From positions 1 to 20,673 of the IMG/VR virus record IMGVR_UViG_3300030380_000373: DNA of 20,673 bases, one strand, 5' to 3'. Source of the stretch: a virus. Shown piece after piece: positions 3,947 through 11,659 of the stretch (positions within the stretch are counted from its first letter, which is position 1; each line of letters starts with the position of its first letter). The notes beneath the pieces are model-generated. The model was not told where the DNA came from. It made no database searches and was given only the letters and a program-made list of their open reading frames with translations. Both the position numbers and the translations under genes were made by a program.

Positions 3947-4132
3947 ATGTCTAAAATAATATTCCTGTTAGGGTGGTTTTGCCTTAATGGTGAATGTGTC
4001 AGTGTAAACGAACAACACAAATCCGTACAGGATTGCAAAAATCAAGGAATGCAATTAAAGTCTATGTTAGATGAACAAAATATTCGTAAATATTTTTTAT
4101 CCTGTATTGATATCAATCCCAACACTTACTAG
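3947..4132 (+). CDS. Small Cys-containing protein with hydrophobic N-terminus
   Basis: A 61-residue protein with a short hydrophobic start (MSKIIFLLGWFCL) and cysteines at positions 12, 17, 30 and 53. It contains NGECVSV, and a near-copy of NGECV recurs in the 12-residue minicistron at 19523-19561. No Shine-Dalgarno sequence is visible before the ATG, so expression may depend on coupling to the upstream gene, which ends 9 bases before. The hydrophobic start could be a weak signal or a membrane tether with disulfide-linked periplasmic residues. Function unknown. Confidence 0.55.
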   Translation: MSKIIFLLGWFCLNGECVSVNEQHKSVQDCKNQGMQLKSMLDEQNIRKYFLSCIDINPNTY

Positions 4133-4149: not shown

Positions 4150-4491
4150 ATGGATGATAAACAGCAAAAAGGAGTATCATCAGAACTTATTGCTGAATAT
4201 TACTTAACCAAAGCAGGATATTTTGTTTATACCAAAAAATCAGTTCAATCCGCAGTAGACTTAGTAGCTATTAAACCAGATACAGGCGAGGTTCTTTTAA
4301 TAGACGTTAAAACCGCTAGTATTAGAATGAGTGGTGAAAAGAAAGGTTCAACTATTCGCAGAGTATTATCAGAAGAACAAAAAAAACTAGGTGTCAATTT
4401 CTTATATGTTTATGAAAATAAAATGTGCGAATTGATAGCTTATAAAGATAATGTAATACAAACAAAAATTCTCAATGAAGTATTAGATTAA
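4150..4491 (+). CDS. Small PD-(D/E)XK nuclease, Holliday-junction-resolvase-like
   Basis: A 113-residue protein. The fold signature is visible: a helix with Glu (SELIAEYYLTKAGY, E12/E16), then Asp37 in AVDLVAI, then D52-V-K54 in LLIDVKTA, the spacing of a PD-(D/E)XK active site with Asp in place of the more common Glu. The C-terminal part adds LSEEQKKLGVNFLYVY, typical of compact resolvase-like nucleases (family knowledge). It would cut branched or double-stranded DNA. No good Shine-Dalgarno precedes the ATG; a small hairpin does. It is separated from the other recombination nucleases and sits at the head of the lysis block. Confidence 0.7.
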   Translation: MDDKQQKGVSSELIAEYYLTKAGYFVYTKKSVQSAVDLVAIKPDTGEVLLIDVKTASIRMSGEKKGSTIRRVLSEEQKKLGVNFLYVYENKMCELIAYKDNVIQTKILNEVLD

Positions 4492-5134: not shown

Positions 5135-5547
5135 TGTTAAATAAATTATTAGGTGGAGGTTTAGTAGATAGTGTTGGAAAGATAGTTGATGAACTTCACA
5201 CTTCAGAAGAAGAAAAAGCACAAGCAAAAATAAAACTTAAAGAATTAGATAATCAATTAAACAAAGCACAGACAGATATAAATTTAGCTGATGCTAAATC
5301 TACTGCTACAGGACTAGGTGGACTACTCCAAAGAATTTGGCGACCCTTGATTGGTTTCAGTTGTGCCTTAGCAATCTTTTGGGAATTTGTTTTAAAACAA
5401 TTTATTATGTTTTTTCTTGCAGTATTTGAAGTTGAAACTTTACCATTGCCAACTTTAGATATGGGTGTTTTAATGCCATTGGTCATGAGCCTTTTAGGCA
5501 TGGCTACACTCAGAACGTATGAGAAACAGAAAGGTATAAGCAAATGA
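5134..5547 (+). CDS. Holin, GTA-type 3-TM holin family
   Basis: A 137-residue protein. Residues 1-60 are soluble and charged, with a coiled-coil-like stretch (SEEEKAQAKIKLKELDNQL). The sequence LLQRIWRPLIGFSCALAIFW (64-83) is the characteristic entry to the membrane part, followed by hydrophobic segments at about 72-98 and 110-126. This plan matches the holin-of-3TMs family first described in gene transfer agents. It would form lesions in the inner membrane that release the lysozyme encoded just upstream, with which it overlaps by one base. It ends overlapping the next ATG by 4 bases. Confidence 0.85.
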   Translation: MLNKLLGGGLVDSVGKIVDELHTSEEEKAQAKIKLKELDNQLNKAQTDINLADAKSTATGLGGLLQRIWRPLIGFSCALAIFWEFVLKQFIMFFLAVFEVETLPLPTLDMGVLMPLVMSLLGMATLRTYEKQKGISK

Positions 5548-5675
5548 AAAAACTTATTTGGAAACCTATAGAAGCAATCCTTGATTGGGCAGACCCTTAT
5601 TGGGCTTGGTCTAATCTATGGAAGTTAATTGTTGTGTTAGTAGTTGTCTATTTTGGACATAACTTAATGCACTAA
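5544..5675 (+). CDS. 43-residue membrane protein of the lysis block
   Basis: Translated directly from the sequence: MKKLIWKPIEAILDWADPYW begins the protein, and a membrane segment follows at about residues 24-38 (NLWKLIVVLVVVYFG). It is Trp-rich at the membrane edge (six Trp in 43 residues). The ATGA overlap with the holin stop indicates coupled translation. It may be an accessory to lysis such as an antiholin or small spanin-like protein, inferred from place and topology only. Confidence 0.6.
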   Translation: MKKLIWKPIEAILDWADPYWAWSNLWKLIVVLVVVYFGHNLMH

Positions 5676-5821
5676 TGATTACCACCACCGCCACCCTATC
5701 AGTTTTAATCAAACCTAGAATAATCGGTAGTAAAGGTAGAACATTTAAAAAATTAACTTTTGGAAAAATCCCCATCAAGAAACCCAAGCTAAGAATAGGT
5801 AAATTAAAAAAGGCAAGATGA
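5675..5821 (+). CDS. Small very basic protein at the end of the lysis block
   Basis: A 48-residue reading frame whose ATG overlaps the previous TAA by one base. It starts MITTTATLSVLIKPRI and becomes Lys/Pro-rich (KKLTFGKIPIKKPKLRIGKL), with no acidic residue at all. The stop lies inside the hairpin at 5809-5837. Small basic proteins of this kind recur near structural genes of the phage. It could be a nucleic-acid- or membrane-binding peptide. Low confidence that it is functional. Confidence 0.45.
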   Translation: MITTTATLSVLIKPRIIGSKGRTFKKLTFGKIPIKKPKLRIGKLKKAR

Positions 5822-10363: not shown

Positions 10364-10575
10364 TGACTAAAATTACAAAAAGCCAAAAAGAATCTGTGAA
10401 GTGTATAGACTGTAGCCGTAAATATACTAAATTTATGTCTATTAAAATTTCACAGTACACAAATGAGCATAAATGTATTAGATGTTATAACGGAGGTAAT
10501 TATGACAAAGAAAATGATATTCGTGCAATATTGTCCAAACGACATGTGGACAGGTTGTTCTACACTTACAGGTAA
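10363..10575 (+). CDS. Small zinc-finger-like protein
   Basis: A 70-residue protein starting at GTG, which overlaps the endonuclease TAG by one base. Cys14/Cys17 (VKCIDCSRK) and Cys38/Cys41 (HKCIRCYNGG) form a four-Cys zinc-binding pair. The last 74 bases overlap the replication gene in another frame, so the C-terminal 24 residues may not be under strong selection. It may be a DNA- or RNA-binding accessory protein. Function unknown. Confidence 0.58.
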   Translation: MTKITKSQKESVKCIDCSRKYTKFMSIKISQYTNEHKCIRCYNGGNYDKENDIRAILSKRHVDRLFYTYR

Positions 10576-11299
10576 AGCTGAACTAGCCTATCGCAGAATT
10601 TGCGATTTAATTTACGTTCAGGATAATAAGTTATTTGATGATGAAGTGACTTGGGAACAAGTGGCTAGACCCTTTTATGAAGATATAGCAAAAATCAAAA
10701 CTGAACTTATTAACAAAGACAAAATCTATATTGATGAAGGTAAAATTCGCAACAAGAGATGTGACTTAGAGATAGAAAAAGCGAAAGAAAAACATCAAAA
10801 AGCAGTTAAGTCAGCAGAGGCTAGATGGGGTGATGCAAACGCAATGCGAACGCATAACGAACGCATATCCGAACGCAATGCTAACACACTAACACACGAA
10901 CACACTAACACACCAACCATTAATCATAAATCAAATATATATACGCAGGAGTTTGATACTTTCTGGCGAAAGTATGTTTTAGATTATAAAGATACTAGGT
11001 CAGTAAAGTGGGATAGTTTTCAACAATGGAAAAAACTAGATGATACACAAAAACAATCAGTAGGGGATAAGTACGTCACCTATAGAAACCAAAAAGGTGA
11101 CTATTACAAGGCACTAGAGCGGTTCTTGAGGAAAAAGATATATCTTGAAGTGACACCTGTTAAAGAAAAATCAGATGAGGAAATGCGAGAATGGAAGTTA
11201 AAAGGTGATATAGATATGCGTAAAAAAGGCATTAAGCTTTTATCTTGGTCAGTTAGTTATATTGAAGAACTAGATAAAGCTATTGCTGACGGCTCATAA
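10502..11299 (+). CDS. DUF1376-type replication protein
   Basis: A 265-residue protein. GGAGG (10492-10496) precedes ATG 10502, which was preferred to the upstream in-frame ATG at 10463. The N-terminal 100 residues (TGKAELAYRRICDLIYVQDN, TWEQVARPFYEDIAKIKTEL) match the DUF1376 winged-helix-like domain of phage replication initiators. Residues about 110-150 form an Asn/Thr/His-rich linker (HTNTPT-like repeats). The C-terminal part (FDTFWRKYVLDYK, ALERFLRKKIYLE) resembles helicase-loader C-terminal domains. It probably recruits host replication proteins to the phage origin. No DNA polymerase or helicase gene is in the window. Confidence 0.72.
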   Translation: MTKKMIFVQYCPNDMWTGCSTLTGKAELAYRRICDLIYVQDNKLFDDEVTWEQVARPFYEDIAKIKTELINKDKIYIDEGKIRNKRCDLEIEKAKEKHQKAVKSAEARWGDANAMRTHNERISERNANTLTHEHTNTPTINHKSNIYTQEFDTFWRKYVLDYKDTRSVKWDSFQQWKKLDDTQKQSVGDKYVTYRNQKGDYYKALERFLRKKIYLEVTPVKEKSDEEMREWKLKGDIDMRKKGIKLLSWSVSYIEELDKAIADGS

Positions 11300-11438
11300 A
11301 ATGGAGTTTCGCCCACTCCCTATCTTGCTTTTTAAATTCTACTTCTACAAATTGGTCAATGCCTTTAGGAGCAGTATCAAACTTGAAAAAGTTAAGAAAA
11401 AAACGGATAGATTTGTTAGTAATATGATAAACATTCAT
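11280..11438 (-). CDS. Possible minus-strand small gene
   Basis: On the minus strand, ATG (complement of 11436-11438) opens a 52-residue frame ending in TAG (complement of 11280-11282). Its second half reads like a natural soluble protein: FKFDTAPKGIDQFVEVEF, then KKQDREWAKLHFMSRQQ, with many G-starting codons. The + strand frames here look like antisense shadow (long Phe/Tyr/Leu/Lys runs). It ends tail-to-tail with the replication gene, overlapping it by 20 bases. A -35-like TTAACA and -10-like TATTCT with a 17-base gap lie upstream on the minus strand, but no clear ribosome site is visible. It fills most of the 180-base gap in the + strand operon. Confidence 0.42.
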   Translation of the reverse strand: MNVYHITNKSIRFFLNFFKFDTAPKGIDQFVEVEFKKQDREWAKLHFMSRQQ

Positions 11439-11479
11439 GGTTGGAATATAAGAATAAATTGTTATCTTTGAATTGTTAA

Positions 11480-11659
11480 ATGAGTAAATCAGCTATGCAA
11501 AATCCTCAGAATTATATTATTGTAGATAATAAAGATGGTACATTTTCAGCCTTTGTTAATTATGGTGTCTTTGAAAGCAAAGAAGATGCAGAACAAAGTT
11601 TACAATATGTCATGGACATGATGGGTTTTAAATTACAACCAGAAGTCACTTATCATTAA
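11480..11659 (+). CDS. Small protein, unknown function
   Basis: A 59-residue protein read directly from the sequence: MSKSAMQNPQNYIIVDNKDG, then TFSAFVNYGVFESKEDAEQS. It looks like a compact alpha/beta domain (two strands, then the helix AEQSLQYVMDMMGF). The stop overlaps the ParB-like gene ATG by one base, supporting coupled translation. No good ribosome site is seen in front of the ATG. No family is recognised. Confidence 0.55.
   Translation: MSKSAMQNPQNYIIVDNKDGTFSAFVNYGVFESKEDAEQSLQYVMDMMGFKLQPEVTYH

Follow-up and report, generated by a model that had tools for sequence, protein, structure and literature searches.

A lone antisense gene for a conserved small protein, with a predicted leaderless promoter, in uncultivated phage genomes

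Introduction

Phage morons are lone accessory genes that carry their own promoter and terminator. The mini-gene described here, from the window (the whole 20,673-base stretch analysed, a record of an uncultivated virus of bacteria), resembles them in being single and small, in having promoter signals of its own and in lying opposite to its neighbors, with a strong hairpin after it in some relatives. It is also present in some and absent from other genomes with near-identical capsids. Unlike a typical moron, it occupies a fixed place in the 12 close relatives found through the small terminase (TerS), there is no evidence of a prophage state, and the copy in the window lacks a terminator. A promoter of its own, as morons have, is suggested for the mini-gene by the conserved position of the -10 box.

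A second comparison is offered by the leaderless mRNAs of alphaproteobacteria, of which Caulobacter crescentus has 375 (PMC4117421). As in such mRNAs, the -10 box of the mini-gene lies 6 nt before the ATG with no Shine-Dalgarno (SD) motif. However, the mini-gene is a phage gene whose leaderless start is predicted from sequence.

Two sets of phages are relevant by gene content. The family has a group 1, the window's kind, and a group 2, most loci of which have a primase like that of locus L223. The L223 primase, the only group-2 primase searched, matches that of HTVC033P at 38% and those of HMO-2011 and CRP phages at 29-33%, which links it to the HMO-2011-type phages (PMC9038755); yet a profile search found no mini-gene in the stretches searched of HTVC033P, HMO-2011 and CRP-345. 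Similarly, the window's large terminase is 54-56% identical to those of the Pelagibacter phages HTVC111P, HTVC112P, HTVC202P and HTVC026P and of phage DSL-LC06, but no family member was found in 11-13 kb of each of the four Pelagibacter phages. In HTVC111P (L064, 7691-8149) and HTVC202P (L066, 7718-7930), a hypothetical gene annotated on the minus strand stands alone directly behind the portal gene; the family profile matched neither of the two.

Results

A minus-strand gene at the junction of two operons

The preliminary description had drawn attention to a coding-looking minus-strand frame in the 180-nt gap between the replication gene and position 11480, tail-to-tail with the former. The frame, its ATG start, the gap and the convergent arrangement were all found in the ORF map (Table 1). 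The divergent partner gene starts 41 nt upstream of the mini-gene ATG.

Table 1. Features at the mini-gene locus of the window
Feature	Position	Strand	Basis or remark
Convergent replication-type gene	10463..11299	+	phrog_9327 primosomal protein, E 3.1e-10; DUF1376 below Pfam cut-off
Small protein gene P0001, 52 aa	11280..11438	-	ATG at 11438, stop ends 11280; conservation and codon tests
3'-end overlap of mini-gene and replication-type gene, 20 nt	11280..11299		ORF map
Non-genic frame, taken as a shadow of the mini-gene	11301..11471	+	pN/pS 0.75-0.76, stops in relatives
Weak terminator-like hairpin within 3' end of minus ORF	11303..11319	-	Predicted folds differ between relatives
Candidate -35 TTGGAA, divergent packaging-side operon	11441..11446	+	By eye; overlaps minus -10
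-10 box TATATT, ending 6 nt before ATG	11445..11450	-	Predicted leaderless transcript start at ATG; TAnnnT conserved, scan match
Candidate -10 TATCTT, divergent operon	11463..11468	+	By eye; overlaps minus -35
Candidate -35 TTCAAA, 16-nt spacer	11467..11472	-	Promoter scan; weak on its own
Divergent partner gene, 59 aa	11480..11659	+	PHROGs matches at E >= 0.095 only; nothing in Pfam, NCBIfam or PADLOC

The minus frame is under purifying selection

An IMG/VR scan with the P0001 translation matched 61 contigs, with identities of 73-100%. They all share the ATG, and the mini-gene is full-length in every one except L061, where it is cut off. The window and 60 of the loci supplied 45 distinct 147-nt sequences, in which the minus frame showed a pN/pS of 0.30 and no stops, while the + strand frame of 11301 showed a pN/pS of 0.75 and stops in 11 sequences.

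Because these loci had been picked by the minus peptide, the codon test was repeated on a set retrieved with the partner gene as query. This search gave 42 loci, of which L077, L102, L106 and L109 were too short to judge and 38 had at least 300 nt upstream. The mini-gene ORF was present in 37 of the 38; L108 is the sole partner-gene locus with sufficient upstream sequence that lacks it. In 36 of the 37 the start lies at the usual distance of 41 nt, and these yielded 26 distinct sequences. In these, the minus frame had a pN/pS of 0.383 and no stops, against a column-shuffle null of 0.846 +- 0.169 in which none of 300 shuffles fell as low, whereas the + frame had a pN/pS of 0.764 and stops in two sequences. 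Purifying selection on the minus frame is thus found in loci that were not picked by that frame.

The alternative assignment would make a gene of the + strand frame 11301-11471 and a shadow of the minus-strand ORF. It has in its favor that the + frame is open in the window; it is refuted by both codon tests and by the stops in relatives, and we give it practically no probability. The earlier suggestion that the minus frame is the real protein gene and the + frame its shadow was therefore borne out, by homologs of the 52-residue translation as well as by codon conservation, and ORF 11280-11438 is almost certainly a gene.

A control shows how such frames can mislead. The minus-strand ORF 5611-5787, in another gap of the window, also returned 46 apparent relatives when searched in the same way, but internal stops interrupt it in 19 of 30 sequences (the window and 29 of the 46 loci, 17 having been dropped), identifying it as a shadow of small + strand ORFs. 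Relatives alone are therefore insufficient, and a codon test is needed. The gap in question looks empty on the + strand in a list of ORFs of at least 50 aa; it holds two small + strand ORFs at 5544-5675 (43 aa, hydrophobic) and 5675-5821 (48 aa, very basic), with which the conservation pattern of the 30 aligned sequences looks compatible. The mini-gene had also been proposed as the only minus-strand gene of the window, and this holds with respect to 5611-5787, the sole other minus ORF tested; the remaining minus ORFs of at least 50 aa lie mostly over + strand ORFs.

A protein family absent from the searched libraries

In an alignment of 59 members, E32, E34 and D39 are invariant, and the columns conserved at 90% include K9, S10, F13, F14, W42 and A43. 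P0001 matched no family in Pfam, PHROGs, NCBIfam or PADLOC. Across the 59 members, the best matches were to Pfam Peptidase_M4 (E 0.00048, four members) and in PHROGs (E 0.006, two members); both were inconsistent across members and were judged noise for a protein of 50 aa. The PDB gave no credible match by sequence (best E 0.1), and the best Foldseek E values were 6.4 against PDB and 4.9 against BFVD. Two AlphaFold runs had pLDDT of 59 and 65, and with such models and no credible Foldseek match, assignment to a helix-turn-helix (HTH) or other known fold was rejected. Rfam returned no match in seven sources, and no paper recognized as describing the family came up in a literature search.

Relatives were also sought in bacterial genomes and in phage records. 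A search of bacterial genomes, made with the group-1 profile A2 only, gave 88 pattern matches and no relatives. tblastn of phage records found none for P0001 or for the L165 and L169 members; the L206 member gave four weak matches (E 2) at the start of an RNR beta gene, judged to be chance. The partner gene gave only 20-residue matches (E 6) in phage records, and the profile search of stretches from nine named phage records reached a best E of 0.096, also judged noise.

Distribution among phage lineages

Profile scans brought the family to 112 sequences (the window and 111 contigs) with 79 distinct proteins, and L375 and L378 are two further carrier contigs. At least three types of neighborhood are represented: besides groups 1 and 2, L237 and L242/L248 have further neighborhoods. 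In most group-1 loci a partner-type ORF of 54-59 aa lies divergently beside the mini-gene.

To judge presence and absence, the TerS search gave 74 loci, 72 of which were tabulated after the short matches L337 and L338 were dropped, and 55 had at least 1.3 kb upstream. The mini-gene is present, and antisense, in all 12 TerS relatives with at least 80% identity, several of which are contigs from the earlier scans. It was found in none of the 43 more distant relatives with at least 1.3 kb upstream, although a few of these absences are unsure since six of the 43 loci have less than 2 kb upstream and the gene of some carriers lies 1.5-1.8 kb from TerS. The major capsid search kept 80 of 399 relatives, nine of them with at least 7 kb upstream; three of the nine (L366, L375 and L378) have a family member and six do not. 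Together, the TerS and capsid counts indicate that the mini-gene moves together with the packaging-side module and is not a constant of the lineage as a whole. L342 and L346, two of the six, have capsids 98-99% identical to that of the window and 10 kb upstream, in which the profile search found no family member; the pair offers a natural comparison for what the gene does.

This distribution bears on the reading of the gene as a moron-like accessory module for anti-defense or superinfection functions, passed between phage lineages, which would be a special case of a protein acting in trans. In its favor, the same small lone unit sits in genomes of different type, was not found in the distant TerS relatives or in most of the capsid relatives, and had no relative in phage records by tblastn, which gave weak matches only. 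Its presence in every close TerS relative and the deep divergence between the groups, which looks unlike recent exchange, argue the other way, as does, within the limits of a library of defense and not anti-defense proteins, the lack of a PADLOC match for the four proteins tried. We regard this reading as tentative, with a probability clearly short of even.

Orientation, overlap and hairpins

Orientation was counted with a simple ORF caller over 111 entries, with a 90-aa minimum for the flanking ORFs. Both flanks are opposite to the mini-gene in 87 entries and the single measurable flank is opposite in 13. The other 11 have a same-strand ORF at one side, which looks real in L237 and may be a shadow in the rest. 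In group 2 the mini-gene is again mostly the lone antisense gene.

A convergent ORF lies within 400 nt in 91 entries, and the 3' ends overlap by 14-26 nt in 53 of these; in the remaining 38 the two ends share no more than 4 nt, abut or are separated by a gap, the larger gaps being mostly in group 2. The convergent neighbor is a primosomal/DUF1376-like gene in most group-1 loci. Elsewhere it is a 166-aa ORF (L136), a different 215-aa ORF (L016) or an ORF of 71-73 aa (L375/L378). The one in L136 appears methyltransferase-like from a motif.

A strong hairpin follows the mini-gene stop in five group-1 relatives (four were folded, z -2.9 to -4.5), and in most group-2 loci a hairpin starts about 25-45 nt after the stop (z -3.7 in L209 and -2.7 in L238). 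Candidates for a moron-like terminator are the hairpins in these five relatives and in 20 aligned group-2 loci; none was seen after the stop in the window (folding z -0.25) or in L223, L242 and L248. The 20 loci were aligned from 34, the 14 dropped being near-duplicates, a single locus that is cut off and the three that lack a hairpin, and 0 of 13 pairs showed compensatory changes. The weak hairpin within the window's ORF was discarded as a feature, its predicted folds differing between relatives. HTVC033P (L263), in which no family member was found, has at about 4230-4255 a GGGG/CCCC hairpin that resembles the group-2 hairpin by eye.

These maps also address the suggestion that the mini-gene regulates the replication gene as an antisense element in cis. 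Such a role would suit the shared 3' ends of the window and of many relatives, and the window's missing terminator. Additionally, synonymous divergence is lower in the mini-gene than in the partner gene (0.387 against 0.525), so that some constraint beyond the protein is possible. On the other hand, the conservation is explained by selection on the protein, and in the five group-1 relatives with a hairpin between the two genes antisense read-through could be halted there. No conserved complementarity to one target gene was found: because the convergent neighbor and the overlap both vary among relatives, antisense regulation of the replication gene is left unsupported, and we consider it very improbable and reject it as the main reading.

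Start signals and the divergent promoter

Among 43 distinct 45-nt upstream sequences without an SD, which are related to one another, all 43 carry a TAnnnT hexamer whose end lies at the same point, 6 nt before the ATG, and every other offset stays below half. A -10 box 6-7 nt before the ATG with no SD is what is expected of a leaderless mRNA whose RNA starts at the ATG, and on this sequence pattern the mini-gene very probably has its own leaderless promoter. In L375 and L378, whose upstream sequences are identical, the hexamer at this position reads TATAAC and so departs from TAnnnT. In group 2, an SD-like motif was present in 34 of 34 loci. Promoter-like scan matches in the stretch are not above shuffles (8 found, 12.0 expected). 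TAnnnT at 6 nt occurs at two of the 40 + strand ORF starts of the window that were checked, near chance by our own estimate; these two, the + genes at 3947 and 4150, have no SD by the script motif and are possible leaderless genes at that near-chance rate.

The candidate promoters of the mini-gene and of the packaging-side operon interlock within 41 nt, each -10 lying over the other's -35, so that firing one would block the other. This arrangement raises the possibility of a regulatory switch, with the divergent packaging operon under the control of the minus protein or of its promoter alone. Many group-1 loci retain the 41-nt spacing and the minus -10, the latter is also retained in a second subfamily whose + gene starts 15 nt further on, the partner gene co-occurs with the mini-gene, and a divergent partner-like ORF stands beside the L375 and L378 copies as well. 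However, the + promoter is a by-eye candidate with 8 of 12 matches over -35 and -10 together, under the scan threshold. Group-2 maps show no partner-like ORF by eye, no HTH family was matched in the library searches, and the all-helical model is of low confidence (pLDDT 65). Such a switch is unlikely on balance, albeit worth keeping in view. A more specific form, in which the family would be a timing switch at the early/late junction, first made by host polymerase from a leaderless antisense unit whose promoter interlocks with that of the late operon and then shut off as the late promoter takes the same DNA, appears improbable.

Discussion

The mini-gene is a coding, conserved gene in lone antisense placement with a -10 box at a constant position. 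By comparison of the sequences, what is conserved is the protein, its ATG and the position of its predicted promoter, and not a fixed antisense overlap. Since a protein with its own start signals is kept rather than the overlap, the most likely product is a small protein that acts in trans and is timed independently. The working promoter, leaderless transcript, timing and function are what we infer from these features.

We propose that the mini-gene is a stand-alone gene for a conserved phage protein of about 50 aa. It would be transcribed from its own sigma70-type promoter, with the RNA starting at the ATG and hence leaderless, toward the end of the replication operon and diverging from the start of the packaging operon. 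The protein would act in trans, its production uncoupled in time from both operons. As a whole, this account of a lone leaderless gene timed separately from the flanking operons is the best explanation and probably correct. Expression would probably be early, from host RNA polymerase; a search for the phage single-subunit RNA polymerase family PF00940 matched none of 13 records, a result made uninformative by control genomes that were equally empty. The protein may serve in host takeover, in anti-defense or in regulation. An early trans-acting takeover or anti-defense role is plausible, at somewhat less than even confidence.

The mini-gene family represents a conserved family of proteins of about 50 residues that is new to the searched libraries and so far seen only in sequences of uncultivated phages, and some genes of its carriers have matches in phages that infect Pelagibacter and other bacteria of the ocean. 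Antisense mini-genes in phage operons that otherwise run all on one strand can be separated from shadows by a codon test if the loci are collected by way of a neighboring gene. Finally, TAnnnT-N6-ATG provides a sharp promoter rule for finding leaderless phage genes.
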